64,000 bases of DNA, taken from Hydrotalea sp. (lineage in GTDB: Bacteria > Bacteroidota > Bacteroidia > Chitinophagales > Chitinophagaceae). Numbering within the stretch: the stretch's first letter is position 1; every line of letters begins with the position of its first letter. The notes under the pieces were generated by a model that searched no databases, was not told the origin of the DNA, and saw only the letters and a list, made by a program, of their open reading frames with translations. A program made the position numbers and the translations under genes. The stretch spans positions 62,001-126,000 of the forward strand of contig DAHXOT010000045.1 of NCBI GenBank assembly GCA_027364735.1. The letters are read 5' to 3'. This document shows positions 3,710 to 34,227 of this stretch, piece after piece.

Positions 3710-5800
3710 TTAATAAAACTTACTTCTATAATCTTTTATAACGGCTGCTTTTCTTAAAGCTTCCGATCCTCTATAAAAAGCCATTCGTTCAGATTGTATA
3801 ATTCCACTTTTTATTGTTTCTATTGTTTCGTTAGATGGTTTTGATCCAAGATTTTCAACTCTAACAACAAAAACACCATTTGCTCCGGCAACCGGTTCTG
3901 ATATTTTTCCTTTTATTGAACTGTTAAACGCAGTTCCGGTAAATTTAGCATCTGTGCCAACACCTGGAATAAATGGGTTATTAAAAAGAATGGTATCTGC
4001 TTTTTGAACCGTTGTATTTACGGATGAAGCTATCGCTTCTAAGGTGTTTCCTTTAATTTTTGAATCAATTATTTGCTTTGCCTTTTTCTCGTTTTTAACA
4101 ATTGCCTCTATTTGTGGGCGAAGAACTTGTGCCGGCGGAAGGCCCGGTTTAATAATAGAAGTAACCATTGCCACAATATACTTATCTCCCACTCGGAATG
4201 TTTGATCGGACACATCGCCTACATTATGTTCGTATGCCCAACGAATTATTTGCCTACTAGATCCTAATCCCACAATATTAAAATCGTTTTCTTTTATTTC
4301 TCCGGAAGGGATTGCCTGCTTCCCAATTTTTGAAAGATTTTCATCAAACTGTTGTTTGTTTCTGCCGGTTGCTGCAAACTGAGAGGCTGCTGTGTTGGCA
4401 GCTGCATCGGTTTCGTTACTTACGTTAATTGGTTTTGCAAAATAGGCAATTTTATATGCCGGGCTTGAACCTTTCTGCCCCAAAACTTCTACATAATGAT
4501 ACCCATAATCGGTTTTTATTACACCTTTTGAACCAACCGGTTTTTCAAAACTAAACTCATTAAATTCAGGAACCATTCTTGCGGTTGTAAAATAATTATA
4601 TACACCTCCGTTTGCCTTATTTCCATCATCAGAATATTTTAAACAAACTGAATCAAAACTTTTACCGCTTTTCAATTCCATTTCAACAGTATCCATTATT
4701 TTTTTTGCGGCACTATCTTCTCTAACTTGAACCAATGCCCCAGATTGTTGATCGGGTTGGTGTGTAGCAACTAAAATATGCCGAACTTTTGCAGAATCGG
4801 GCATTTGTTTAACACCAATAAGCTTTGCTAATACATAGCTGTTTCCATCTAAATATGGTCCATAAACTCCACCTACTGGCAACTTCGTTATTGAATCAAT
4901 ACTCTTTTGCTTTATTTCTTTTCTACTAACATACCCGTTGTAAAAAGGCGATTCGGTTGTGTTTTTTGAAAAGAACTCCTTCATATTTGTTGCTGTTGCA
5001 AAATCATTTCTTTGAGAAATAAGTAGATTTTTTGTTGCAGCAGAATCTGCAGAACTTGCTGAAGCATCAAATGAAACAAATGAAATGGTTCTGGTTTCTT
5101 CGTCTCTTTTATATTCACTTTTGTGTTTAGCAGCATACGCCATAATTTCTTCATCGCCTACTTTCGCCATTGTATCGCTAATTGTTGTGTAAGGCACATA
5201 CACAAAAGAGGCGCTGGATACTTGATTATTATCGGATAATTGTTTTTCTGCCATCCATTTCGGAACATATAATGCATGTTCTAAAAGGCTTTGATATTTT
5301 TGTTGTTTTGCTTGTTGAACAGACGGATTAATATATCCGTCTGTTATCATTTGTAGTTGTTCGGTATTTTTAGACTTTTTAATTTGTGCTAATGCCGCTC
5401 TTAATTTTTCTATATCAAAAACTCCTGTTTGAGGATCTGTAAATTCTCTTTTAAATGGCGAGTTTTGTCCGTATAAAATATCCGATAATTCTCTTTGCCC
5501 AATTACAATACCTAATTTATTATATTCATCATCCATTACAGCGTTAGTAACTTCCTGATTCCACAATTGAGTTATTAATTGTTCTCTATCTACACCATTT
5601 CGGCTATACATAGAAATTTTTTGCTCAAAATCTACTCGTTCTATTTTTTTACCATTCACTTTTCCCAAAACAGTGTTGTTTGAAAAAATTCCTCCTCCCC
5701 TACGAACACCATCTTGTAAAATAAAAGCAATTAAGGCAAGCGCAATTACACCAAATACAATCCACGCTCCTTTATCTCTAATTCTTTGAATAACAGACAT
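3710..5800 (-). CDS. PpiD/SurA-type periplasmic peptidylprolyl isomerase
   Basis: A 696-residue membrane-anchored folding factor. After a short cytoplasmic start (MSVIQRIRDKGAW) a single membrane helix covers about residues 14-30. A SurA_N-type chaperone region follows, then a parvulin domain (PpiC/rotamase) at about residues 337-445 beginning AKVRHILV and ending DYGYHYVEVLG. The C-terminal 250 residues form further SurA-like helical and parvulin-like segments. The architecture is that of PpiD, which chaperones outer-membrane and secreted proteins emerging from the Sec translocon. The gene is monocistronic with a strong terminator behind it. Naming it ppiD is by architecture; sequence identity to the enterobacterial protein is probably low. 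Confidence 0.88.
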   Translation of the reverse strand: MSVIQRIRDKGAWIVFGVIALALIAFILQDGVRRGGGIFSNNTVLGKVNGKKIERVDFEQKISMYSRNGVDREQLITQLWNQEVTNAVMDDEYNKLGIVIGQRELSDILYGQNSPFKREFTDPQTGVFDIEKLRAALAQIKKSKNTEQLQMITDGYINPSVQQAKQQKYQSLLEHALYVPKWMAEKQLSDNNQVSSASFVYVPYTTISDTMAKVGDEEIMAYAAKHKSEYKRDEETRTISFVSFDASASSADSAATKNLLISQRNDFATATNMKEFFSKNTTESPFYNGYVSRKEIKQKSIDSITKLPVGGVYGPYLDGNSYVLAKLIGVKQMPDSAKVRHILVATHQPDQQSGALVQVREDSAAKKIMDTVEMELKSGKSFDSVCLKYSDDGNKANGGVYNYFTTARMVPEFNEFSFEKPVGSKGVIKTDYGYHYVEVLGQKGSSPAYKIAYFAKPINVSNETDAAANTAASQFAATGRNKQQFDENLSKIGKQAIPSGEIKENDFNIVGLGSSRQIIRWAYEHNVGDVSDQTFRVGDKYIVAMVTSIIKPGLPPAQVLRPQIEAIVKNEKKAKQIIDSKIKGNTLEAIASSVNTTVQKADTILFNNPFIPGVGTDAKFTGTAFNSSIKGKISEPVAGANGVFVVRVENLGSKPSNETIETIKSGIIQSERMAFYRGSEALRKAAVIKDYRSKFY

Positions 5801-5835
5801 ACAATAGTTTTAATAGTACAATATTTAAAAGATGG

Positions 5836-5843
5836 CAAATTTA
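5836..5843 (-). promoter_or_regulatory. -7 promoter element of the PpiD-like gene
   Basis: Minus-strand TAAATTTG followed by CC fits TAnnTTTG. It predicts a transcript start about 30 bases upstream of the ATG at 5800. No TTG is seen at the -33 distance. Confidence 0.45.
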
Positions 5844-6384
5844 GGGGAAACTATTAATAGAAAAAATTGTGGAAAAATATCTCAAATCCAATTGTTATAG
5901 ATAAATCTTCTGTGGACATCTTTTCTTTTGGTGCTAGAAAAAAGGAGAGTAATAAAAAATCTTTCTTTTTTGTGGAACATAAATTAACACTGTTTCGTTA
6001 ATAAGCATTCTTTTCTGTTGGTTTTTATTCTTTTCGTTTCCTTTTGTGTTAAAAGAAAACGAATATGTTTTACTGTTTTATTTATTCTTCGCTTTTTTTA
6101 TAATTAAATAACAAATTACTTAACGTTAATTAACTGTGTGTTTCCGGTGAACTATATTTTGGTGATAATTAAGTAAAATAAATAAACAGTGTTTATAAAT
6201 AACCCATCTCTTTATATAAGCTACATCATACGTATATTTCTTTTGTGAATTACTGTGTATAACCCTTTCATTATTAACTTTGCTTTATGTTAGTAATTTA
6301 GTTATTAAGAAATTAACAGGCATAATAATAGTATTGATTTTATATAAATAAGTATTATTAAATAATACTACAACAGATATACAC
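5844..6384 (+). other. AT-rich intergenic region between divergent genes
   Basis: About 540 bases with no credible gene on either strand. It contains several TGTGGA words (5868, 5911, 5971), one exact relaxed DnaA-box match TGTGTATAA at 6254-6262, and the palindrome TTAACGTTAA at 6120-6129. The right part should carry the nadA promoter. Whether the repeated words mean anything is discussed under findings. Confidence 0.5.
6253..6282 (+). promoter_or_regulatory. Candidate nadA promoter
   Basis: TAACTTTG at 6275-6282 matches the TAnnTTTG -7 element. A weak -33 (CTG at 6253-6255) lies 19 bases upstream. The predicted leader is about 95 nt. Confidence 0.35.
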
Positions 6385-7368
6385 ATGGACTTAAAAAAAG
6401 GATTTTTAGATATACCAATAGATCCGCAGCTTGATATTTTTGAAGAAATAGCAAAATTAAAGAAAGAAAAAAAAGCTGTTGTTTTGGCGCATTATTATCA
6501 AGAGCCGGATATTCAGGATATTGCGGATTATATTGGCGATAGTTTAGGTCTTGCTCAAAAAGCAGCTACTACAGATGCAGAGATGATTGTTTTTGCGGGC
6601 GTTCATTTTATGGCAGAAACCGCAAAAATTTTAAATCCTGCTAAAAAAGTAGTTCTTCCAGATTTAAATGCAGGATGTTCTTTAGCGGATAGTGCTCCTA
6701 CCGATTTATTTGCTACTTTTAAGGCAAAACATCCTAATCATGTAATTGTATCATACATTAATTGTTCAGCCGAAATTAAAGCACTAAGCGATATTATTTG
6801 CACATCTGGCAATGCAGAAAAAATTATTGAAAGCATTCCCGAAAAACAAGCGATTCTTTTTGCTCCGGATAAAAATTTAGGAAGGTATTTAAATAAAAAA
6901 ACGGGAAGAAATATGTTATTATGGGATGGGGCTTGTATGGTTCACGAAATATTTAGTGTAGAAAAAATTGTAAAACTAAAAATAAGGTATCCAAACGCAA
7001 AAGTATTAGCACATCCTGAGTGTGAAGAAGCTATTTTAAATATTGCAGATTTTATAGGTAGCACAACACAAATATTAAAATATTCGCAACAAGATAATTG
7101 TAAAGAGTATATTGTGGCAACTGAAACCGGAATTTTACACCAAATGCAGCAAAAAACGCCGCAAAAATTATTTATTCCGGCACCGCCAAATAATAATTGT
7201 GCCTGTAATGATTGTCCGCACATGAAATTAAATACATTGGAAAAAATATATTTATGTATGAAGTATGAACAACCGGAGATAAAAATAAATGAAGCATTAA
7301 GAATTGCAGCAAAAAAACCAATTGATAAAATGATGGAAATAAGTAGAGTTGCAGGATTAGTGATGTAA
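6385..7368 (+). CDS. nadA: Quinolinate synthase NadA
   Basis: A 327-residue [4Fe-4S] enzyme that condenses iminoaspartate with dihydroxyacetone phosphate to quinolinate in de novo NAD synthesis. Seen in the sequence are [26 protein letters not shown] near the start, the first cluster cysteine in [12 protein letters not shown], the second in [14 protein letters not shown], and the third in the C-terminal [18 protein letters not shown] region. Length and motif spacing are normal for the family. No nadB or nadC is adjacent. It converges on the chromate-type transporter with only four bases between the stops. Confidence 0.96.
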
Positions 7369-7372
7369 ATAG

Positions 7373-8632
7373 TTAAAAAATAAATCCTAAAATTAAACAA
7401 ATTAAAACAATAAAAGGAGCCGGAATTTTTGAAAAAACCAGGAGAAGAAAAGTTAATAGAATAACAGAAATATCTATATAACCGAGTATTTTAGTTTGCC
7501 AACTTTCATGTAAAAGAATATCTTTTATTAAATACAAACTTGCACCGCCTAAAATACCAACCACAGCAGCATTAATACCTTCTAAAGAACGATAAATAGC
7601 CGCATATTTTTTAAGATTTTGCCAAACAGGAAAAAAGAATAAAACCAATAAAAGACTTGGTAAAAAAATACCAACAGAACCTAAGACAGAACCTAAAAAA
7701 TGTAATGCAACATTATTTTCCGATCGCATTACCATTCCGCCCGTAAAAGAACCAATAGAAAAAACCGGACCGGGAATAGCACGAACCATTCCGGACCCTG
7801 TTAAAAAAGCATCTCTATTTATTCTTAAAACATCGCGTTTTTTTTTCAAAATATATTTTGTTTCCGGACGAACAACATATTGTTCATACATTATAGGAAT
7901 TAAAACATCGCCGCCACCAAAAACCAAACTTCCAAAACGATAAGAGTTTTCGAAAAGGTTGAATGCTTTTTTATTTGTCCAGTTTTCTCTTGTTGCTGTT
8001 TCCGATAAATATCCGGCAATACCAAACAGAGCAAGAAAAATTAAAAGATTTCCCCATTTTATTTGTTTTGGTTTTTCTTCTTTTTGCGGAATTCTTTTAT
8101 TACTAAAATTGGTAACAATACCCGATAAAAGCATTACTACCGGAAAAACCCAAGGCGTTTTAAATGCAAAAAAAGTAACAACCGAAGCAACTAAAACAAT
8201 AACTCGAGTAATAGTATTATGAACAGCAATTTTAAATAAACGAAAGGTAGAAAAGGTAATAAATCCAATAGCCATTGGTTTAATGAATTTAAAAGAACCA
8301 ACGCCTATGCCAAAATCATCAAAATAATCTAATAAAAAAGATAGCCCGCCCATAATAATACAAGCGGGAGTCATCCAAATAAGCAGGGTTAAAATAGCCA
8401 AATATATTCCACCTCGCTTATACCCAATTAAGGTTAATGTTTGGGTAGAAGAGGCGCCCGGTAACATATTACAAAAGCTCATAAAATCTAATAACTCAGC
8501 CTCTGAAATATCTTTTCTTTTTTGAACAAATGTTTTCAGCATCATACCAAAATGCCCTTGCGGTCCGCCAAAGGCAGAAATGCTGTAGAGAAAAACGGCT
8601 TTTAAAAAAGGAATGTGACGATATATCGCCAT
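7373..8632 (-). CDS. Chromate transporter (ChrA/CHR family), two-domain form
   Basis: A 419-residue polytopic membrane protein with two homologous CHR domains in tandem, the long form of the chromate ion transporter family. The first half carries [15 protein letters not shown] and [23 protein letters not shown]. The second half carries the matching [16 protein letters not shown] and [21 protein letters not shown]. Proven members expel chromate, perhaps in exchange for sulfate, but many genomic homologues have no demonstrated substrate, so the chromate role is only the family label. It stands alone, with nothing nearby suggesting metal resistance. Confidence 0.9.
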
Positions 8633-25333: not shown

Positions 25334-26269
25334 ATGAGTAACCCTGTAATATGTATTGGTGCTGCATTGGTAGATGAATTATACCATGCCAATGGGCCGA
25401 TACTTTTAGCTACCACCAACGAAGGAAAAGTGCATCGCAGTGCCGGTGGTGTTAGTAGAAATATTGCACACCAATTGGCTTTATTAGGTGTTCCTATTCA
25501 ATTAATTAGTGTTTTTGGAAGCGATGGAGAAGGCGATTGGCTAAAAACAATTTGTCAATATGCGGGTATTAAATTAGATGCATCAATTACCAGCTCATCG
25601 CTTACCGGAAAATATACAGGAATTTTAAATGAAGATGGATCTTTGTTTACCGCATTTCTAACAAATCCTCCATTACATTTAATTACACCCGAACATTTTG
25701 AACAAAATAAGCAGCTTTTAGAAACAGCATCGGTTATTTTAGCAGATGCCAACATACCTGTTTTATCAACAGAATGGTTATTGAACTTTTGTAATAATAA
25801 TAAAATTCCATTAATAATTGAACCCGTTTCGGTTCCGCCTGCAGAAAAATATAGAAAGGCTAATTTAAAAGGATTGTTTTTAATTACACCTAATGAAGAT
25901 GAATTGCCGGTATTATGTAATACCAATGCTGTTACCGTTTTGCAACAAGTAAATGAATTATTAGAAAGAGGAGTACAATATATTTGGTTGCATAGAGGTT
26001 CGGAAGGGTCTTTATTTTTTAGTAAAGAAAAAACAATACAATTGGCTGCACCAGAAACGATAGTTAAAGATTGTACCGGTGCCGGAGATGGATCGGTAGC
26101 AGGCTTTATATTAGCTAAATATTTGCATAAAACAAATGAAGAAAGTTTACGCATTGCACATACTTTATCTGCAGAAATTTTGCAGGTAGATGGTGCAATA
26201 GCAACACATCTTAATCAAGAAGAATTATTACAATTGGTTTCTACCTATTATCCTGAAAAGAGTGAGTAA
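25334..26269 (+). CDS. psuK: PfkB-family kinase, probable pseudouridine kinase
   Basis: A 311-residue ribokinase-like sugar kinase. It has the N-terminal PfkB signature region (GGVSRNIAHQLALLG) and the C-terminal catalytic signature DCTGAGDGSVAGFILA with the base Asp. Placement 68 bases before psuG and the same orientation point to pseudouridine as substrate, phosphorylated at the 5' position before glycosidic cleavage. On sequence alone it could be another nucleoside or sugar kinase. Upstream, TATTCTTG at 25321-25328 is a one-mismatch -7 element five bases before the ATG. Confidence 0.85.
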   Translation: MSNPVICIGAALVDELYHANGPILLATTNEGKVHRSAGGVSRNIAHQLALLGVPIQLISVFGSDGEGDWLKTICQYAGIKLDASITSSSLTGKYTGILNEDGSLFTAFLTNPPLHLITPEHFEQNKQLLETASVILADANIPVLSTEWLLNFCNNNKIPLIIEPVSVPPAEKYRKANLKGLFLITPNEDELPVLCNTNAVTVLQQVNELLERGVQYIWLHRGSEGSLFFSKEKTIQLAAPETIVKDCTGAGDGSVAGFILAKYLHKTNEESLRIAHTLSAEILQVDGAIATHLNQEELLQLVSTYYPEKSE

Positions 26270-26337
26270 AGAAGTTTAAAAAACATCCAATTTTAAATTG
26301 TAAAAAGTTATCTACGCAGTAAAAATTACCTTTAGGT

Positions 26338-27255
26338 ATGCTTAATTCCTTTATTTATATTCATCCCGAAGTACAACAAGCAATAGTTGAAAACAAACCT
26401 GTTGTAGCGTTAGAATCTACCATTATTTCTCATGGCATGCCTTATCCCAAAAATGTAGAAACGGCATTGGCTGTTGAACAACTGGTGAGAGATAATGGTT
26501 CAATACCTGCAACAATTGCCATTATGGATGGGAAATGTTTTGTAGGATTATCTGCAAAGCAAATAGAATTTTTTGGAAAGGCTTCGAATGTTTGGAAAAC
26601 AAGTTTACGCGACATACCATTTGTTCTTTCTAAAAAATTATATGGTGCAACTACAGTTGCGGCAACCATGCGTATTGCCGCCATGGCCCAAATAAAAATA
26701 TTTGTAACAGGAGGTATTGGCGGCGTACATAGAGGTGCAGAAAAAACAATGGATATTTCTGCCGACTTAACCGAAATGGGAAATACTTCTGTTGCTGTAA
26801 TATCTGCAGGTGTAAAGTCTATTTTAGATATTGAACTTACGTTGGAGTATTTAGAAACCAAAGGAATTCCGGTTATTACTATTGGGCAAAATGAGTTTCC
26901 AAGTTTTTATTCACGCAACAGCGGAATAAATTCTCCTTTACGCGTAGATACGCCCGATGAAATTGCTGAAATGTTGAAAATAAAATGGGAAATAGGCTTG
27001 CAAGGTTCAGTTTTAATTGCTAACCCTATTCCGTTGGCACAAGAAGTAGCCGCAGAAGAAATGAAAACATATATTGATGCTGCCCTTAAAAACGCTGATG
27101 CCAATAATATAAAAGGGAAAGAAGTAACTCCCTTTTTATTAAATTGGATTGCACAACATACTCGAGGAGAAAGTTTAGAAGCGAATATTGCATTAATAAA
27201 AAACAATGCAATATTGGGTGCAGCAATTGCCAAATCGTTTTATCAAAAAAATTAA
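26338..27255 (+). CDS. psuG: Pseudouridine-5'-phosphate glycosidase
   Basis: A 305-residue enzyme that cleaves the C-C glycosidic bond of pseudouridine 5'-phosphate to uracil and ribose 5-phosphate. The family signature VVALESTIISHGMPYP with the catalytic Glu is near residue 25. RGAEKTMDISADL supplies the metal-binding Asp, and SAGVKSILDI the Schiff-base Lys. The end region SLEANIALIKNNA is also conserved. With psuK it forms a complete modified-nucleoside salvage route; no dedicated transporter is adjacent. A TACCTTTA element ends three bases before the ATG. The stop overlaps the convergent gene by four bases. Confidence 0.95.
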   Translation: MLNSFIYIHPEVQQAIVENKPVVALESTIISHGMPYPKNVETALAVEQLVRDNGSIPATIAIMDGKCFVGLSAKQIEFFGKASNVWKTSLRDIPFVLSKKLYGATTVAATMRIAAMAQIKIFVTGGIGGVHRGAEKTMDISADLTEMGNTSVAVISAGVKSILDIELTLEYLETKGIPVITIGQNEFPSFYSRNSGINSPLRVDTPDEIAEMLKIKWEIGLQGSVLIANPIPLAQEVAAEEMKTYIDAALKNADANNIKGKEVTPFLLNWIAQHTRGESLEANIALIKNNAILGAAIAKSFYQKN

Positions 27256-28151
27256 TTATTTACTACCAATAATTCGGGTTCATCGTTATTAAAATCTTCG
27301 GTTTGTAATTCAATGCGGCGAGTAATATCGTTTAAAGCCGCTAACCGCTGCACGGTATAGGGAACGGTATCTAAACCGGTTACGAATTTTAAAATGTAAT
27401 TATAAATGCCAATTAAATCGCCGGCTACAATTACGGTTCCCGAAATTTTATTGGTTACCAATAAAGAAAACCCAATAACAAGCATTACCAATATTTCCAT
27501 TGCACCAAAACTCCAAGCCTCTTGATCGGATATTTTAATTTGCCATTCTCTTAGTTTGTGGTAATGCCTTCTTATAGCCAAATGATTTCCTGTAGAAATA
27601 ATATCTACTTGTTGTTCTAATTCATCATTCTTTGCTTTATTTAAGCGGTTCATTTTTTTACCATAGAAATAGCTGATAGCGGCCACAGGTATTAAAATAC
27701 TTAAACAAATAAATACAACCTTAGTATCGTAAAAATATAATAAAATTAAAGAGCCAAGTATATTATAAAAAGCTTCCATTACATACACCAAATCGAATTC
27801 TAAGAAATCAACAAATTCTCTTGCTAAAGTGGAGTGAGCGCTTAGTTTAGAAATATCGTTAGAATGATATTTGCGAGCTAAAAATTTTGTTACTAATGAA
27901 GTATAAATAGATGAGTAGGTTCTTGTATCGTACCTATGGCGAATGGTACCAACTATTAACCAAGCAACATGTACAATGGAGAGAATAATAAGCCCTTTAT
28001 AAGAACCTTTCATTAAATCGTTTACGGCTTCTCCTAAAAAAAATGGACGCAATAATGATCCTACCATTTCTAAAGAAAATAATATATAGGTAAGCAACAA
28101 TTGTAATCGGTGCTTTTGAAAAATGGTTTTTAGTATGGTTAAATTTGGCAT
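27252..28151 (-). CDS. ABC transporter six-transmembrane-domain protein without ATPase
   Basis: A 299-residue protein made of a single ABC exporter-type membrane domain (ABC_membrane_3-like), with about five to six helices: LLLTYILFSLEMVGSLLRPFFLG, GLIILSIVHVAWLIVG, FYNILGSLILLYFYDT, VFICLSILIPVAAISYFYG and ILVMLVIGFSLLVTNKISG. There is no Walker A, signature or Walker B, and no ATPase gene lies nearby. Members of this family are usually annotated only by fold. It follows the ATP-grasp/SET operon by 137 bases in the same direction and may be part of it or start from its own promoter. Transport substrate unknown. Confidence 0.75.
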   Translation of the reverse strand: MPNLTILKTIFQKHRLQLLLTYILFSLEMVGSLLRPFFLGEAVNDLMKGSYKGLIILSIVHVAWLIVGTIRHRYDTRTYSSIYTSLVTKFLARKYHSNDISKLSAHSTLAREFVDFLEFDLVYVMEAFYNILGSLILLYFYDTKVVFICLSILIPVAAISYFYGKKMNRLNKAKNDELEQQVDIISTGNHLAIRRHYHKLREWQIKISDQEAWSFGAMEILVMLVIGFSLLVTNKISGTVIVAGDLIGIYNYILKFVTGLDTVPYTVQRLAALNDITRRIELQTEDFNNDEPELLVVNN

Positions 28152-28262
28152 ATCCTTTCTTTAGGTTTATTAGTGGTTTTCTCTTAAATAAAAGGTAGTT
28201 TACAAGTATAGTATAGACTTTTGTAAAAGACCGAAGTTTAGATGAGATAGTAAGTAGGATGG

Positions 28263-28270
28263 CAAATGTA
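28263..28270 (-). promoter_or_regulatory. Candidate -7 element for the six-helix membrane protein gene
   Basis: Minus-strand TACATTTG followed by CC is an exact TAnnTTTG match. It lies between the ATP-grasp/SET gene and the membrane protein gene and predicts a leader of about 105 nt. If used, the membrane protein is at least partly independent of the upstream operon. No -33 TTG is evident. Confidence 0.35.
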
Positions 28271-28288
28271 AGAATCGAAAAGAAATTA

Positions 28289-29701
28289 TTAGCCTGAAGT
28301 CTTGTCAGCATTGAGGTTTTTGCCGGTAATGACACCGCGACAGTTTGCAGAACCACATTGACAATCAAATGATTGTGCATGCTCGTTTAAAAATGTTGCA
28401 TAATCTAAGGTTAGTTCAGCGTCTTTGTTAATTTTTTGCAAAGCCACAACATTTAAGCCTTGATAGCCGGTATTTGGATTACATGAGTGATTTTGCGGTG
28501 CCCAGTCTGAAGGGTTGTTCGACCATAAAATATACACTTCGTAGCTTATTGGATAGGCGTATTTGCTAAAAATTTCTTTCTGTTCTTCGTTCCAATTTTC
28601 ATCCACATATTTTTTGGTAACAATGCGTTGAGCCAATTCTTCTCCTTGAAAAATAATTTCTCCGGCTTCTATGTTTTTTGTAGCATAAATTCCATAACCC
28701 GAAATGGAGTTACCTTTTACCACATATTTTTTTTGTAATCGGCCATGCCGGGCAATACCTTCTTCTATAATATGTTGTAAAAAGCCCGAAGCACCAATGG
28801 TATCGTACTTTAAAATATAATCGGCAGAACCTTCGTAGCCGCTGGTATAAAAAACCGAACAGGTAAAATTAATTTCTAAAAAATATAAATTACCCGATGC
28901 GTCCATCCTAAAATCTAATCGGGCATAACCAACGCCATTAAATGAACGAAAAATACGTTGAGCCGCATTACGCAACTGTTGATTGATGTTTTTATCGGTA
29001 ACCGGAATATTGGCGTTAGGGTGTAATTCGGATGTTTTTAAGGCATAGGTTTTAAAACTATTTCCTTCGGGAAAAATAAACTCAATGGGCTGAAATGCTG
29101 TTGAAGTTTTTCCATCAGAATTGGCAGCAACAAGAATTGTAAACTCTCTTCCATCAATATATTCTTCTATTAAAAGTTCGTTATACGTTTCAATTATTTC
29201 GGCAACTTTTTGTGTTAGTTCAAGTTCGGTAAATACTAAAGAATGTTTATCAATTCCTAAACTATCACCGGCTTTGGCCGGTTTTACAAATAAAGGAAAT
29301 TGCAATTGTGTTATAACCTTAGGAATATCTGTAAGCGATTGTATTAAAACGTAGGCCGGTGTTTTTATATTTTCGCAGTAGGCAACATACTTCATTAATT
29401 CTTTAGGTGGATCGTATAATGTGGATGAAGGTCCGGTGTAAGGAAGATTGAGTAATTCTAAAGTATAAATAACGTCAATGGAAGGAACTTCCCATTCTAA
29501 ATATCCTTCACAAAGATTTACAAAAACATCGTAATTTTTTTTACTTAAATTTTTCAGTTGTTTATAAGTAGTAAGCTTATTTAAAAAAACGTTTTCAACG
29601 GTTGCTTCCGGAAGTAAAGGAGCTAAATTTCTGGGAGGATCGTAATATTGATAATCCACAGCAGAGGTTGAATAATCGGGTTGCAAAACACAAATTTTCA
29701 T
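28289..29701 (-). CDS. ATP-grasp ligase fused to a SET-domain methyltransferase
   Basis: A 470-residue fusion. Residues 1-320 are an ATP-grasp enzyme of the D-Ala-D-Ala ligase group: glycine-rich loop region LFVKPAKAGDSLGIDKHSL, LLIEEYIDGREFTI, and the metal-binding end YARLDFRMDASGNL with FLEINFTCSV. Residues about 335-465 are a complete SET domain: GNSISGYGIYATKNIEAGE, the substrate/SAM motif NHSCNPN, ELTLDY, and a post-SET zinc motif CQCGSANCRG. SET domains transfer methyl groups from SAM to lysine. Its ATG overlaps the stop of the upstream ATP-grasp gene by one base. The combination suggests ligation plus methylation of an amino acid or peptide; substrate unknown. Confidence 0.85.
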   Translation of the reverse strand: MKICVLQPDYSTSAVDYQYYDPPRNLAPLLPEATVENVFLNKLTTYKQLKNLSKKNYDVFVNLCEGYLEWEVPSIDVIYTLELLNLPYTGPSSTLYDPPKELMKYVAYCENIKTPAYVLIQSLTDIPKVITQLQFPLFVKPAKAGDSLGIDKHSLVFTELELTQKVAEIIETYNELLIEEYIDGREFTILVAANSDGKTSTAFQPIEFIFPEGNSFKTYALKTSELHPNANIPVTDKNINQQLRNAAQRIFRSFNGVGYARLDFRMDASGNLYFLEINFTCSVFYTSGYEGSADYILKYDTIGASGFLQHIIEEGIARHGRLQKKYVVKGNSISGYGIYATKNIEAGEIIFQGEELAQRIVTKKYVDENWNEEQKEIFSKYAYPISYEVYILWSNNPSDWAPQNHSCNPNTGYQGLNVVALQKINKDAELTLDYATFLNEHAQSFDCQCGSANCRGVITGKNLNADKTSG

Positions 29702-30813
29702 CAGGCATTCACTTTTCTTGCATAAGCATTTTGTAATATTTCTGCTATTAACTGAGCGAAAGTAGTATTACTTAATCGTAAAATGGCTCCTATTGAAGTA
29801 TAATTTTCATCTTCGCTTAAGCCGCATTGAGCATTTACTTCTAATACATAAATATTGCCTGTACGGGCATTCATTCTTAAATCAACTCTCGAATAGCCCT
29901 GACCCTTCACTGCACAATAAGCATCCCAACTTATTTTTTTAATTGTTTCGTGTAAGGAGGCATGGGGTGTTGTGTATTCATAAAAATTTTCATTTTTGGG
30001 CATAGGCGTTTCATCTTCATATATTTCCCATAACCGATCGAATGATAAAAACTTTTCATTATCTGGAAGTGAAGGATGAAAAACTCTTTCAACAGGAGGA
30101 TAAATAACCGCTTCTTCAGGTCTATCATAAGATCCTACAATTAATGTCGTAAATTCAGGTCCAACAATAAACTCTTCTGCAACTATTCCATCTACGGTTA
30201 ATTTCCAGCCCCTATAACCTTCAAATAATTTATTTACCTGTTCATTTAATTCAGTATTATTTGTAACTACATTTTTTATTCCAACGCCCATGCTTCCACC
30301 CGAAACGGCCGGTTTAACAATTATTGGGAAACCCAATTTTCTGAGGCTTCCATTTAATTGCTGATTTTTTTGTTGAATTGAAATCCATTTGGCATGCGAT
30401 ACACCGTATTCATCAAACGCTTTTTTCATCGATACTTTAGAGGTAGTTATATCGTAAAAATATTCGTCGGCTCCGGTATAAATTAAATCTTTTTCTTCCA
30501 GATATTTTAGAACAGAAATGCCGGGAGTTCCATTAACTTCATCTCCATCGCATAAATTTAAAATAATAGCAGTATAGTGCTCATTGTTTTTTTCGGTAAT
30601 GATGGAATCAATGATTGATTGATAATTATTTAAAGTAACTGCTTGCCATTTCCATGGCAAACCCAATATGGTAAAAGCTTTGGTATATTCTAAAATACTT
30701 TGAGAAAAATCGTAGTAATAATCAATATTAGGATCGTTAGTAATAAGGTAAGGAGCTAATACCCAAACCTTTACCGTTTCTTCTGTGAATTGATTTTTAA
30801 AAAATGTGTTCAT
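29701..30813 (-). CDS. D-Ala-D-Ala-ligase-like ATP-grasp protein
   Basis: A 370-residue stand-alone ATP-grasp enzyme related to the preceding fusion partner but clearly diverged. Visible motifs are FPIIVKPAVSGGSMGVGIKNV (ATP-binding loop region), VAEEFIVGPEFTTLIVG, and a C-terminal metal site YSRVDLRMNARTGNIYVLEVNAQCGLS. In true D-Ala-D-Ala ligases the last motif reads E-[IV]-N-T-x-P-G; here N is followed by AQCG, arguing for another amino or carboxylate substrate. It sits 7 bases after the small SET gene and overlaps the next gene by one base, in a tight three-gene operon. Confidence 0.82.
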   Translation of the reverse strand: MNTFFKNQFTEETVKVWVLAPYLITNDPNIDYYYDFSQSILEYTKAFTILGLPWKWQAVTLNNYQSIIDSIITEKNNEHYTAIILNLCDGDEVNGTPGISVLKYLEEKDLIYTGADEYFYDITTSKVSMKKAFDEYGVSHAKWISIQQKNQQLNGSLRKLGFPIIVKPAVSGGSMGVGIKNVVTNNTELNEQVNKLFEGYRGWKLTVDGIVAEEFIVGPEFTTLIVGSYDRPEEAVIYPPVERVFHPSLPDNEKFLSFDRLWEIYEDETPMPKNENFYEYTTPHASLHETIKKISWDAYCAVKGQGYSRVDLRMNARTGNIYVLEVNAQCGLSEDENYTSIGAILRLSNTTFAQLIAEILQNAYARKVNA

Positions 30814-30820
30814 TGTATAA

Positions 30821-31360
30821 TTATAGTGAGCTTCTTTTTTTTAATTGATGTTGAATAAAATCGGTTAATAAATAATGCGATAAAATTTTTTTTGGAAGAT
30901 GGGCTGCCCCTTTTATAGTTTGTAAGCAGTTTTTGGAGTTACAATAACAAATAAAAGGTTGTGCCATATTCCATTCGGTTGATGGATAAAAAAAAGTTAT
31001 TTCATCTCCAATATTTAAATTTTTTAAAGCAATTATTTCGAAAGTTGTTGTATTAAAAAAAACGCTGGGAGAACAACTATGATTAGTGTATTGCAAAAAC
31101 TCGGGTTGAAGTGTAATGTGATGCTGTTCATTAACCTGAATGGTAAGATAAGTTGCTTGCGTTAAAGTTAAGCCGGCACTAAACAAACAAATAATTTCTC
31201 CTTTATAAAATTTTTGTGCGGCATGCAACGATTTTTGCTTGGTTACAACATTTTCTACCACATCGGCAAAACCATGTTTGCTAATAATTTTAAATGATGG
31301 GTTAGTAAATGTATAAAGCATACTATTAATGGGTAATAGCAAGTTAATATGAAATGGCAT
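30821..31360 (-). CDS. Small stand-alone SET-domain protein
   Basis: 179 residues forming one SET domain: an N-terminal strand FKIISKHGFADVV, then YTNHSCSPSVFFN (NHSCxP motif), LNIGDEITFFYPSTEW (the G-D-E-x-T-x-x-Y motif) and a post-SET CYCNSKNC cluster. The last Asn of the usual NHSCNPN is replaced by Ser. The start is uncertain: a second Met at residue 14 (31321) immediately precedes the conserved fold and may be the true start. It is first in the operon with the two ATP-grasp genes and divergent from the FIST gene. Predicted lysine methyltransferase; target unknown. Confidence 0.78.
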   Translation of the reverse strand: MPFHINLLLPINSMLYTFTNPSFKIISKHGFADVVENVVTKQKSLHAAQKFYKGEIICLFSAGLTLTQATYLTIQVNEQHHITLQPEFLQYTNHSCSPSVFFNTTTFEIIALKNLNIGDEITFFYPSTEWNMAQPFICYCNSKNCLQTIKGAAHLPKKILSHYLLTDFIQHQLKKRSSL

Positions 31361-31547: not shown

Positions 31548-32690
31548 ATGAAAACACAACAACTTTCATACAAAAACTCCCTGTGGTCTGTTTATCAAAC
31601 AACGCCTAATTTTCAAAGCAATCAATGTCAGTTAGTATTTATTTTTGGTGCAAATGAAATTGTTTCAGACCCCACAATATATAATCATGTTTATTCGCAA
31701 TATCCCAATGCCAATATCGTTTCTGCCTCTACAGCAGGAGAAATAATAGATAAAAATGTTTTTGATAATACAGCGGTAGTAACAGCAATAGAATTTAACT
31801 CAACTCAAATTCGATGCGTTAAAAAAAATATAACAGAACATGCCAGTAGCGAAGCTGCAGGTAAATTTTTAATGAATCAATTTCCGGAAGATGGTTTAAA
31901 ATCTGTATTTATTATTTCTGATGGAACCAAAATAAATGGCAGTGAGCTTGTTTTAGGAATTAATGCCAACACGCCTAAAGGCATATCTGTAAGTGGTGGA
32001 TTAGCAGGCGATGCAGCCAGATTTTTACAAACAAGTACCGGACTTAATAGCGTAGCATCCGAAGGCAATTTAATTGCTATTGGTTTTTATGGCAATAATA
32101 TTAAAGTTGGTCATGGTTCTTTTGGAGGCTGGGATGAATTTGGAAAAGAAAGAAAAATTACCAAAGCCAATAAAAATGTTTTATACGAAATTGATGGAAA
32201 AAGTGCATTGAGTTTATATAAAGAATATTTAGGACCCTTTGCCGATGAATTACCCGGATCGGCATTATTATTTCCTTTATCACTTAAATTAGAAAATTCG
32301 GAAAAAAATTTAGTAAGAACTATTTTATCTATTGATGAAAAAGAACAATCAATGACGTTTGCCGGGAATATGCCCGAAGGAAGCACCGTTCGATTAATGA
32401 AAGCTAATTTTCAAAAATTAGTAGAAGGAGCTTCTTCTGCAGCTAATTATGCCATACAAAACATGGTTACACAACCGCCACAATTAGCCATATTAATTAG
32501 TTGTGTAGGAAGAAAATTGGTTTTACAAAGCAAAACATTTGAAGAAGTAGAAGCGGCAAAAAATATTATTGGCAAAAACGCAACCATTACAGGGTTTTAT
32601 TCATACGGCGAAATATCTCCCATGCACTCTTATTTAAATTGCGATTTACACAACCAAACCATGACAATTACCACTTTTACTGAATTTTAA
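31548..32690 (+). CDS. FIST N/C-domain sensor protein
   Basis: A 380-residue soluble protein with a FIST N-terminal domain (about 20-220: LVFIFGANEIVSDP, ASTAGEIIDKNVFDNTAVV, GISVSGGLAGDAARF) and a FIST_C domain (about 225-360: GNMPEGSTVRLMKAN, PQLAILISCVGRKLVLQ, GFYSYGEISPM). FIST proteins are small-ligand sensors that sit next to signalling enzymes. One characterised group, NosP, binds heme and nitric oxide and controls a partner histidine kinase. The next gene, 25 bases on, is a hybrid histidine kinase, matching that arrangement. The ligand cannot be told from sequence. Confidence 0.88.
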   Translation: MKTQQLSYKNSLWSVYQTTPNFQSNQCQLVFIFGANEIVSDPTIYNHVYSQYPNANIVSASTAGEIIDKNVFDNTAVVTAIEFNSTQIRCVKKNITEHASSEAAGKFLMNQFPEDGLKSVFIISDGTKINGSELVLGINANTPKGISVSGGLAGDAARFLQTSTGLNSVASEGNLIAIGFYGNNIKVGHGSFGGWDEFGKERKITKANKNVLYEIDGKSALSLYKEYLGPFADELPGSALLFPLSLKLENSEKNLVRTILSIDEKEQSMTFAGNMPEGSTVRLMKANFQKLVEGASSAANYAIQNMVTQPPQLAILISCVGRKLVLQSKTFEEVEAAKNIIGKNATITGFYSYGEISPMHSYLNCDLHNQTMTITTFTEF

Positions 32691-32715
32691 TTTCCTAACC
32701 TTATTTTTTCTATTT

Positions 32716-34227
32716 ATGCTCCTGCATCCTACACTACAAAAGCAAGTTGAAAAATTTCTTTCAGAAGAAACAATAAATAATTTTTCTGTACAACAATTTT
32801 TAGAGGAAGTAAATAATTATTATATAACTTTTGATAGAGACAGAAAACTTACCGAACATGCATTTCAAATAAGCGAAAGCGAATATCAAAAAGCCAATCA
32901 AGAACTACAAACTCAAATTGAACTTAAAAAAGAATCTATTTTAAAACTAAAAGATGCAATAAAAACACTCGATAAAACAGCAGCACCTTTTACCGATAAT
33001 ACAGATGATAATTTGATAGAAACGATTGCCTATTTAAAAGAACAAATTCAAAAAGCAAAACAATTAGAAACTGACTTAATTAGTGCAACAGAATTAGCCG
33101 AAAAAGGCGTTGAAGCAAAAACTGAATTTCTTTCGGTAATGAGCCACGAAATAAGAACACCGCTTAATGCTATTATTGGAACCATTTTATTATTAAAATC
33201 TAGAGATCCACTTCCATCGCAACAAGAATTAATACGCGTTTTAGAAATTTCATCCGAAAATTTATTAAGCTTAATTAACGATGTATTAGATTTTACCAAA
33301 TTAGAAGAAGGCAAAATAATATTTGCCGAAAGAGATATAGAACTTTTGCATTTACTTAAAAATGTAAAATTAGCCTACAGGGTTAAAGCCGAAGAAAAAG
33401 GAAATCAAATAAAAATAATTTACGATGATGATATTCCTGAATTTGTAAAAGGAGATGATATTCGCTTAGGGCAAATTATTAATAACCTAATTTCTAATGC
33501 CATTAAATTTACTAAAAACGGCACAATTACCATACGTGTTGCTTTGGAAGAAAAAACAGAAAAAGAGGTGCTTATTTATTTTGCTGTTGAAGATACCGGC
33601 ATTGGCATACCGGAAGAAAAGCAACAAATGATATTTGAACGATTTACACAAGCAAATGCCAATATTACCAGAGAATTTGGCGGATCGGGTTTGGGATTAA
33701 CGATTATTAGACGGTTATTAAAATTGCAAGACAGCGATATTTATGTGCAAAGCAAACACGGCGTTGGTTCTACATTTTATTTTAAACTTAAATTTAAAAA
33801 AAGCAACACTGTGGTAAAAGAAGAAACAGTAAATAATTTTGATAACCAAGATTTAAAAGGATTAAAAGTTTTATTGGTAGAAGATGTTTTATTTAATGTT
33901 ATGGTGGCAGAGGGAATGTTACAAAATTGGAATGCAATTGCCGATGTTGCCGAAAATGGTAAAGTGGCTGTTGAAAAAGTTAAAGAGAATGAGTATGATG
34001 TTATTTTAATGGATATTCAAATGCCTATTATGGATGGCTACACCGCAACCGAAGAAATAAGAAAATTTAATATAGAAACACCTATTATTGCTTTAACCGC
34101 ATCGCTTTCTATCGATATTCAAGATAAAGCTACTGCTGCGGGTATGAATGGCTTTGTAACCAAACCATTTAATCCTAACGATTTGTTTTTAGCATTGTAT
34201 AGAAATACCATTGGGAAGAATATGTAA
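32716..34227 (+). CDS. Hybrid histidine kinase/response regulator partner of the FIST protein
   Basis: 503 residues with no membrane segment. The N-terminal region is helical and coiled-coil-prone (about 1-130). Then come HisKA (FLSVMSHEIRTPLNAIIG, phospho-His about residue 144), an HATPase_c domain (N box NNLISNAIKF, G boxes DTGIGIP and GGSGLGLTI) and a C-terminal receiver (LLVEDVLFNVMVAEGML, phospho-Asp about 433 in ILMDIQMPIMDGY, Lys in VTKPF). There is no output domain, so phosphate probably passes to another regulator or an Hpt protein. It lacks its own sensor domain, which fits the FIST protein as sensory subunit. Convergent with the porin, four bases apart. Confidence 0.93.
   Translation: MLLHPTLQKQVEKFLSEETINNFSVQQFLEEVNNYYITFDRDRKLTEHAFQISESEYQKANQELQTQIELKKESILKLKDAIKTLDKTAAPFTDNTDDNLIETIAYLKEQIQKAKQLETDLISATELAEKGVEAKTEFLSVMSHEIRTPLNAIIGTILLLKSRDPLPSQQELIRVLEISSENLLSLINDVLDFTKLEEGKIIFAERDIELLHLLKNVKLAYRVKAEEKGNQIKIIYDDDIPEFVKGDDIRLGQIINNLISNAIKFTKNGTITIRVALEEKTEKEVLIYFAVEDTGIGIPEEKQQMIFERFTQANANITREFGGSGLGLTIIRRLLKLQDSDIYVQSKHGVGSTFYFKLKFKKSNTVVKEETVNNFDNQDLKGLKVLLVEDVLFNVMVAEGMLQNWNAIADVAENGKVAVEKVKENEYDVILMDIQMPIMDGYTATEEIRKFNIETPIIALTASLSIDIQDKATAAGMNGFVTKPFNPNDLFLALYRNTIGKNM

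Follow-up and report, generated by a model that had tools for sequence, protein, structure and literature searches.

A Hydrotalea operon that ties SET domains to Ddl-like ATP-grasp ligases: a candidate pathway for a methylated peptide-like metabolite

INTRODUCTION

SET enzymes are best known as histone markers, and their usual target is a protein lysine. RimK and the tubulin tyrosine ligases add amino acids to protein tails.

BurB, a SET enzyme of small-molecule biosynthesis, converts free methionine to S-methylmethionine (PMC12542666). It is a compact SET domain with a C-terminal Cys cluster (PDB 9l4t/9l4v), features that it shares with P3, the stand-alone SET-domain protein of the locus analyzed here; however, BurB operates alongside DMSP enzymes and an assembly line of the polyketide type (PMC7496086), not with ATP-grasp ligases. 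The eukaryotic protein TTLL12, like the fusion protein of this locus (FUS), has a SET-like domain and an ATP-grasp-type ligase domain in one protein. According to PMC3520985, the ligase domain of TTLL12 is of the TTL type with the SET-like domain N-terminal to it, so that the order in FUS is reversed, and TTLL12 is described there as lacking critical residues, with no in vitro activity found.

Here, we analyzed the operon for P3, FUS, and the ATP-grasp protein P2 in a 64,000-nucleotide stretch of a Hydrotalea sp. contig (DAHXOT010000045.1; family Chitinophagaceae), which we refer to as the window. In the open-licence papers searched, we found no description of a bacterial ATP-grasp/SET system, while earlier mention elsewhere is possible. 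The initial annotation of this DNA had left room for a homologous operon that was already characterized, and none was found in that literature.

RESULTS

The genes for P3, P2, and FUS are all on the minus strand, with a spacing of 7 nt between P3 and P2 and a 1-nt overlap between P2 and FUS (Table 1), exactly as initially annotated for three leftward genes encoding a SET protein, an ATP-grasp protein, and an ATP-grasp/SET fusion. That annotation overlooked the adjacent gene, which follows FUS after a gap of 137 nt and encodes an ABC-type transmembrane protein of PF13748 without a nucleotide-binding domain; this gene is probably the fourth member of the operon set. Because the majority of 33 aligned relatives of P3 begin near Met14 of the window protein, the real start of P3 may be at 31321.

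Table 1. Genes of the operon and the adjacent membrane protein gene in the window
Feature	Coordinates	Strand	Length and evidence
P3, stand-alone compact SET-domain protein	30821..31360	-	179 aa; Pfam SET 4.9e-7
P2, Ddl-like ATP-grasp ligase	29701..30813	-	370 aa; Pfam Dala_Dala_lig_C 2.4e-18
FUS, ATP-grasp/SET fusion	28289..29701	-	470 aa; Pfam, structure model, intact frame in relatives
ABC_membrane_3 (PF13748) transmembrane protein	27252..28151	-	299 aa; Pfam 3.9e-43

FUS matches Dala_Dala_lig_C at residues 127-279 (5.1e-24) and SET at residues 335-434 (4.2e-11) in Pfam, and its architecture comprises a Ddl-like ATP-grasp domain at about 1-322 followed by a SET domain and post-SET Cys cluster at about 326-460. 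The predicted structure of FUS (pLDDT 83.5) matches the Ddl fold with a Z score of 28.3 over 295 residues (rmsd 2.8); by Pfam and among the fold matches listed, the ligase domain of FUS is Ddl-like. The initial annotation had allowed that the fusion might be a frameshift artefact. This possibility is ruled out by the recurrence of FUS as an uninterrupted frame of full length, which is present in 21 of the 60 Chitinophagaceae genomes, 20 of them other than that of the window, by the invariant active-site residues described below, and by dN/dS values of 0.04-0.14 across four pairs of loci, which point to purifying selection on FUS.

All four motifs quoted in the initial annotation were found in place. 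In the ATP-grasp domains, these are EINFTCS (FUS 276-282) and EVNAQCG (P2 325-331), in which E276, N278, F279, T280, C281, and S282 of FUS and E325, N327, A328, Q329, C330, and G331 of P2 show no variation across the 33 rows of each alignment; both motifs are family traits. Equally invariant in the 33-row alignments are K140, E179, E186, R261, D263, E276, and N278 of FUS, which we take to be the ATP/Mg positions of ATP-grasp enzymes, and K167, E213, E220, R309, D311, E325, and N327 of P2, which are presumably the positions for ATP, Mg, and catalysis. FUS, by Pfam, the structure model, and invariant residues, and P2, by Pfam and invariant residues, have an ATP-grasp fold with the ATP/Mg residues, and they share both with the Ddl family.

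FUS and P2 differ from the Ddl family in the D-Ala binding motifs and in their scores against the curated NCBIfam Ddl model TIGR01205, where both fall far below the cut-off of 245.65 bits (FUS, 95.3 bits; P2, 78.5 bits). We take the D-Ala site of Ddl to consist of the N-terminal Glu, His-Gly, KP..GSS, the K-Y lid, and E-x-N-T-x-P-G. In one alignment of FUS and P2 with four Ddl from FUS-bearing genomes, the four Ddl carry all of these motifs, whereas FUS and P2 lack them except for the lid Lys in FUS. A true Ddl with all motifs is encoded elsewhere in the window's genome. The earlier proposal that FUS and P2 are not D-Ala-D-Ala ligases is therefore borne out by the missed cut-offs and the absent motifs, which the genome's own Ddl keeps, and cell-wall Ddl activity as the main role was rejected on the same two grounds. 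In a tree, P2 and FUS form sister clades separate from four Ddl, with a support of 99/93 for the ATP-grasp sister relationship. The Pfam match of P2 to RimK is poor (E 0.09; 12.8 bits versus a cut-off of 21).

A related ATP-grasp protein (30% identity, 1e-23) is a free-standing Ddl-like ligase encoded on a plasmid of Thioflavicoccus mobilis. It shares Asn-Leu-Ala-Glu-Gly at the position of the His-Gly of Ddl, but its operon differs in that it has no annotated SET gene and that the genes on its strand serve diaminopropionate-type synthesis. A KamA-family gene adjoins this ATP-grasp gene on the opposite strand.

In phmmer searches, P3 matched BurB (PDB 9l4t) over residues 6-159 at 2e-13, and the best histone enzyme gave 1.9e-5. 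The structure model of P3 (pLDDT 92.5) had BurB as its top fold match (Z 15.4, 129 residues, rmsd 3.4), with the best histone enzyme at Z 11.5 (120 residues, rmsd 2.6). These data support that, among solved proteins, P3 is nearest to BurB by sequence and predicted fold. Using the Met- and SAM-site residues given in PMC12542666 and a comparison by hand from the phmmer alignment, we found that P3 retains T73, H93, and Y124 of BurB, all three without variation across 33 rows, while 9 of the 12 named residues (R42, A44, R70, H72, S88, V130, M132, R133, and H138) differ. FFYP and Glu-Trp are invariant in P3 at positions where BurB has DYA and Glu-Asp. P3 and a SET protein of Eleftheria are 28% identical, while the latter matches BurB at 1.7e-73, so that P3 is, by sequence, only distantly related to the true orthologues of BurB.

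For the SET domain of FUS, the search of PDB sequences gave KMT2A as the best match (1.6e-8) and BurB as a weaker one (1.4e-5), so that a protein lysine is a possible target of this domain. Considering both proteins, methylation of either a thioether or an amine is conceivable, and the target may also be a protein. The assumption in the initial annotation that a SET domain implies lysine lacks support in this form, given that the nearest solved relative of P3 makes S-methylmethionine, while KMT2A is the best match of the FUS SET domain; the guess of a methylated-lysine product is neither supported nor excluded.

The Asn-His pair, the Cys, and the Tyr of the SET domain and the post-SET Cys are invariant in P3 and FUS (33 rows each), whereas TTLL12 lacks critical residues. 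NHSCNPN is at FUS 404-410 and NHSCSPS at P3 93-99. Of the 33 rows, 30 have Asn at the last position of the latter, the window and one other have Ser, and one has Thr; the "altered" form is thus found in 3 of 33 relatives and is not a family trait.

FUS, P2, and P3 are present in the identical 21 of 60 family genomes, and this co-occurrence holds when P3 is distant (1.7 Mb off on one contig in G022; on another contig in G053). Carriers of the operon include strains of Sediminibacterium and Lacibacter. At one locus (L075), a reverse-order fusion, P3::P2, is encoded in a single frame. The shared genomes and this second fusion substantiate the earlier claim that the two activities act together. 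FUS is found without P2 and P3 in two genomes (G303 and G428). In green sulfur bacteria, as judged from the presumed lineage, the gene order is P3, FUS, a complete ABC exporter, and another small SET protein, with no P2. In the tree, the SET domains of P3 and those of FUS fall into two distinct clades, each flanked by other bacterial SETs, the deep branches being weakly supported and several rows long, and the two SET/ligase pairs are likely of separate origin.

Mobile or viral spread was rejected: none of the 478 plasmid records matching FUS covered 80% of it in one place, none of the 6 plasmid records matching P3 exceeded 80%, and pattern scans of IMG/VR contigs yielded no relative of FUS or P3. 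A role in anti-phage defence was likewise rejected, as PADLOC gave one marginal match alone (P3, 0.0083).

Of 79 related loci, 51 have a PF13748 relative immediately downstream of FUS and in the same orientation; another gene occupies this place in 24, and the contig ends in 4. Nine of the 60 family genomes gave strong PF13748 matches, and each of the nine has FUS, while 12 of the 21 FUS-positive genomes have no strong match. The exporter in the operon of the presumed green sulfur bacteria (f38) is of a family other than that of the PF13748 gene, and the transporter linkage holds in two distant lineages. For the remaining neighbors, we surveyed the 20 commonest clusters, scanning one representative of each with Pfam (one cluster had no Pfam match). 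The other common neighbors (RecQ, MnmG, SSB, YbeY, CorA, PfkB, indigoidine-synthase-A-like, and similar) have no constant position, a pattern that resembles inherited gene order more than an operon. Among these 20 clusters, we saw no genes for unusual amino-acid synthesis, recognized no candidate protein substrate, and found no Mur or Van-type genes and no decarboxylase, transaminase, or dehydrogenase of the DMSP route. The divergent genes in the window are not conserved partners, since, of 80 loci, 1 has FIST and 3 have the kinase.

In the single genome G303, FUS is near genes for a MATCAP-family carboxypeptidase, GGT, and glutathione-synthetase-like proteins, with gaps of 442-501 nt on each side of FUS, a neighborhood that we treat as no more than a lead. 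In G350, a GGT gene adjoins a gene for a P3-like SET protein.

DISCUSSION

We favor, with about even confidence, the reading that the operon is a dedicated module that makes and exports a small, methylated metabolite resembling a peptide. The ATP-grasp domain of FUS would activate a carboxylate with ATP, giving an acyl phosphate, and couple it to an amine by Ddl-type chemistry, and the SET domain, with SAM as methyl donor, would methylate either a substrate or the product. In Chitinophagaceae, a second ligase/SET pair, split between P2 and P3, would attach or modify a further unit, and the neighboring ABC-type protein would move the product across the membrane. The substrates would be small molecules rather than proteins; this, the order of the steps, and export are what we infer.

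This reading is based on the occurrence of FUS, P2, and P3 in the same genomes; on the joining of SET and ATP-grasp domains in both orders; on the ligase ATP/Mg residues kept in FUS and P2, the Ddl fold of FUS, and the absence of D-Ala motifs; on the proximity of P3 to an enzyme of free methionine; on the linkage of ABC-type genes in Chitinophagaceae and the f38 operon; on the place of a related ATP-grasp gene in a diaminopropionate-type operon; and on the dN/dS values. Counting against it are the proximity of the FUS SET domain to KMT2A and the named BurB residues that differ in P3; the loci where the PF13748 gene is not next, the FUS-positive genomes with no strong match to it, and the lack of an ATPase domain in the window's copy of it; and the lack of unusual-amino-acid genes in the commonest clusters and the genomes with FUS but neither P2 nor P3.

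Protein modification, which we consider unlikely, would have the ATP-grasp enzymes extend a protein tail with amino acids, while the SET domains would act on lysines in this protein or a different one. It agrees with the usual SET target, with KMT2A as the nearest PDB match of the FUS SET domain, and with the MATCAP-family carboxypeptidase gene near FUS in G303; moreover, TTLL12, with both domain types, is a member of the tubulin tyrosine ligase family (PMC3520985). However, the ATP-grasp domains are Ddl-like with a weak RimK match for P2, the closest solved relative of P3 uses a free amino acid as its substrate, the operon is linked to a transporter gene, no candidate protein substrate was recognized in the commonest clusters, and the MATCAP neighborhood is confined to one genome.

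Quite improbable, in our view, is a sulfonium pathway in which P3 would be a BurB-like methionine S-methyltransferase and the ligases would couple S-methylmethionine to amino acids, yielding a compatible solute or signal. The similarity of P3 to BurB with the three invariant residues kept is in line with this idea, as is the fact that BurB holds methionine via main-chain atoms (PMC12542666), but the nine differing residues, the replacement of DYA and Glu-Asp, the distance to the Eleftheria protein, a true BurB orthologue, and the absence of DMSP-route enzymes from the commonest clusters argue against it.

There is very little to recommend a cell-wall variant, in which the ligases would build an alternative peptidoglycan dipeptide methylated by the SET domains, because the Ddl fold of FUS and the Pfam Ddl family matches of FUS and P2 stand against a normal Ddl in the same genome, the absence of Mur/Van-type genes from the commonest clusters, and a patchy spread over 21 of 60 family genomes. 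A purely structural, non-catalytic role of the SET domains beside the ligases, of the kind suggested for TTLL12, a precedent for a SET/ligase protein that can be without both activities (PMC3520985), is just as improbable given the invariant Asn-His pair, Tyr, and SET/post-SET cysteines in FUS and P3.

Extending the biosynthesis-and-export reading, we tentatively suggest, with clearly less than even confidence, a natural-product pathway, spanning Bacteroidota and green sulfur bacteria, that physically couples SET tailoring enzymes to non-ribosomal Ddl-type ligases. Its product would be a di- or tripeptide of a new class, methylated on N or S (a quaternary ammonium or a sulfonium compound) and exported, and SET domain and ligase would have been joined at least twice, in opposite orders. 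The locus would then be an uncharacterized biosynthetic locus with a patchy distribution across Chitinophagaceae, found also in what are probably green sulfur bacteria. BurB, the closest relative of P3, is a bacterial SET enzyme solved with a small-molecule substrate, and an operon that ties SET domains to peptide-bond enzymes and a transporter provides a testable case of a SET branch that may act on metabolites.

Organization and conservation of the operon

The domain search resolved a leftward trio: the SET protein P3, the ATP-grasp protein P2, and FUS, which carries both domains. A 7-nt gap separates the first two genes and a 1-nt overlap joins the last two, with an ABC gene as the fourth gene. 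The genome carrying the window is 2.77 Mb. In 51 of the 79 related loci with a placeable FUS, a relative of the ABC gene directly followed FUS, each time with matching orientation; a different gene followed in 24, and the contig ended in 4.

Coordinates of the operon genes and other features discussed here
Feature	Sequence	Positions	Strand	Description
P3	Window	30821-31360	-	SET protein
P2	Window	29701-30813	-	Ddl-like ATP-grasp protein
FUS	Window	28289-29701	-	ATP-grasp/SET fusion
ABC gene	Window	27252-28151	-	ABC transmembrane region (PF13748) without ATPase domain
Open frame	Window	27997-28380	-	127 aa, across FUS end and ABC gene start
PfkB pair	Window	25334-27255	+	PfkB-family kinase, then indigoidine-synthase-A-like protein
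FIST pair	Window	31548-34227	+	FIST-domain sensory protein and hybrid histidine kinase, divergent from the operon
SET/polyamine fusion	L124 (G295:C65)	6465-8318	-	617 aa; SET, S-adenosylmethionine decarboxylase, and spermidine synthase
P3-like pair	L127 (G350:C25)	4237-6520	-	P3-like SET gene adjoining a gamma-glutamyltranspeptidase gene

The comparison set comprised the 80 top-ranked of 162 related loci on genome contigs. Their records carry the names Chitinophagaceae, Chitinophagales, Sphingobacteriales, Bacteroidota, or similar, as well as one "uncultured bacterium"; genera included Sediminibacterium, Lacibacter, Ferruginibacter, and Terrimonas. This range puts the window within Chitinophagaceae or close to it. 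Applying a score threshold, we found P3, P2, and FUS together in 64 of these 80 loci (counting L075, in which P3 and P2 form a single frame); of the remainder, several were broken by contig ends and some lacked P3 nearby. For four close locus pairs, dN/dS was 0.04 to 0.14 for the three genes. P3-P2-FUS is a real unit under selection. Across the 80 loci, relatives of the PfkB-family kinase (12 loci) and the indigoidine-synthase-A-like protein (11 loci), which we take to resemble a pseudouridine breakdown pair, occurred near the operon; the FIST protein was found in 1 locus and the hybrid histidine kinase in 3.

Full-length FUS, P2 (E ≤ 1e-60), and P3 (E < 1e-60) were each detected in 21 of the 60 genomes of the window's family, and the three genome lists match exactly; the chance of hitting one given 21-of-60 set is 1.3e-16, a figure that disregards kinship. 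The link between P3 and FUS/P2 persists despite physical separation: in G022, 1.7 Mb lies between them on one contig, and in G053 they are on different contigs, each kilobases from the contig ends. Nine of these 60 genomes, each of them FUS-positive, gave strong PF13748 matches (E < 1e-30); in G044 the match lies on a contig separate from FUS. The other 12 FUS-positive genomes had no match at this threshold. In six FUS-negative genomes the matches were weak (6e-9 to 6e-4) and fell within frames of ~600 aa. None of 39 genomes from the order's other families had a full-length FUS.

Distribution across the phylum

At E ≤ 1e-45, FUS was present in 17 of 395 phylum genomes, representing 9 genera and 5 families: 5 genomes from the window's family, 9 from f38, and 1 each from f44, f48, and f74. 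In a sample of 58 f44 genomes, one carried FUS. Family f38 probably represents green sulfur bacteria (Chlorobiaceae), because the Fenna-Matthews-Olson protein family was found in 4/4 f38 genomes tested vs 0/3 from f44, f48, and f74. The f38 operon has the order P3, FUS, complete ABC exporter (~600 aa, transmembrane plus ATPase, based on a Pfam run on two exporters), and second small SET (~120 aa); this order is complete in 7 of 9 loci, the other 2 being interrupted by contig ends. FUS is the constant member of the set, because P2 is missing from the nine FUS-bearing f38 genomes (the P2 profile at E ≤ 1e-25 recovered FUS alone), a P3-P2 pair with a 4-nt overlap lies away from FUS in G304 (f48), and FUS is present without P2 and P3 in G303 and G428.

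In G303 (C3, L125), FUS is flanked on one side by a gamma-glutamyltranspeptidase gene and on the other by N-formylglutamate amidohydrolase, MATCAP-family, and glutathione-synthetase-like genes, all on the same strand. Loci L129 and L130 have paired overlapping SET genes of ~200 aa each.

SET domains

The closest PDB protein to P3 (model pLDDT 92.5) is the methionine S-methyltransferase BurB (phmmer 2e-13, residues 6-159), followed by an H3K36-specific histone methyltransferase (7ea5; 1.9e-5). VIA-align matched P3 to the two entries of BurB, both one protein, with Z 15.4 over 129 residues (rmsd 3.4) and Z 14.8 over 128 residues (rmsd 3.5), and then to ASH1L with Z 11.5 over 120 residues (rmsd 2.6); Foldseek gave E 1.4e-10 for BurB vs 1.9e-6 for the next match. 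The FUS SET domain matched KMT2A at 1.6e-8 vs BurB at 1.4e-5, which counts against a metabolite role for FUS. We consider protein modification by the set unlikely.

According to PMC12542666 and PMC7496086, BurB is a SET protein that acts on free Met but leaves two other thioethers unmethylated, and Met is held by main-chain atoms (PMC12542666). We compared the 12 BurB residues named in PMC12542666 by hand from the phmmer alignment: P3 keeps T73, H93, and Y124, invariant in 33 alignment rows, and differs at R42, A44, R70, H72, S88, V130, M132, R133, and H138. Because 9 of 12 differ, the P3 pocket differs from that of BurB, and Met is no more than a candidate P3 substrate; a sulfonium pathway appears improbable. 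That the SET domains are non-catalytic is very hard to credit: neither P3 nor FUS varies at the Asn-His pair, the Tyr, or the post-SET cysteines.

An evident BurB orthologue (1.7e-73) on an Eleftheria plasmid adjoins polyketide synthase, aminotransferase, and gamma-aminobutyraldehyde dehydrogenase genes. This context and the SET/polyamine-enzyme fusion of G295 are compatible with small-molecule work by bacterial SET proteins, and the fusion hints at action on small amines. Next to the fusion is another SET protein (483 aa), whose C-terminal part is unassigned.

ATP-grasp ligases and their coupling to SET domains

The FUS model (pLDDT 83.5) matched Ddl structures over 295 residues (Z 28.3, rmsd 2.8). 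FUS and P2 both retain the positions that we take to be the ATP and Mg sites. Compared with four Ddl proteins from FUS-bearing genomes, both lack the N-terminal Glu motif, His-Gly, GSS, lid Tyr, and N-T-x-P-G, presumably the D-Ala binding elements. The curated Ddl cut-off is 245.65 bits, whereas FUS scores 95.3 and P2 78.5 bits, and the window's own genome encodes an ordinary Ddl (G000:C28); a cell-wall variant thus seems highly implausible. The top-ranked plasmid match of FUS belongs to a Thioflavicoccus operon that also encodes 2,3-diaminopropionate-type enzymes and is followed on the opposite strand by a KamA-family gene; neighbors of two rhizobial relatives were uninformative.

In a tree, the ATP-grasp domains of P2 and FUS formed sister clades (99/93) separate from the four Ddl proteins. 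P3 and the FUS SET domain formed one clade each (SH-aLRT 98 and 98), with other bacterial SETs beside each; the tree has weakly supported deep branches, and several of its branches are long. These relationships favor, without proving, that SET and ligase were united twice, separately. In L075, P3 and P2, in that order, share a 556-aa open frame with no Met between the domains, a single MAG instance that may be an assembly error.

The component parts are already known; a search of open-licence papers turned up no report of the combined bacterial SET/ATP-grasp system. The published protein found to unite both domain types is eukaryotic TTLL12, described in PMC3520985 as inactive in vitro for both reactions.

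The analysis shows the anatomy of the set, its modeled folds, its conservation, and its co-occurrence. That the set produces a small, methylated, peptide-like compound and moves it out of the cell has, in our judgment, an even chance of being correct, because of the ligase chemistry, the action of the nearest solved relative of P3 on a free amino acid, the pairing and fusion of SET and ligase, and the linked transporter, which is of a different kind in each of two lineages. The proposed pathway, whose substrates, step order, and export direction we infer, would make and export such a compound.
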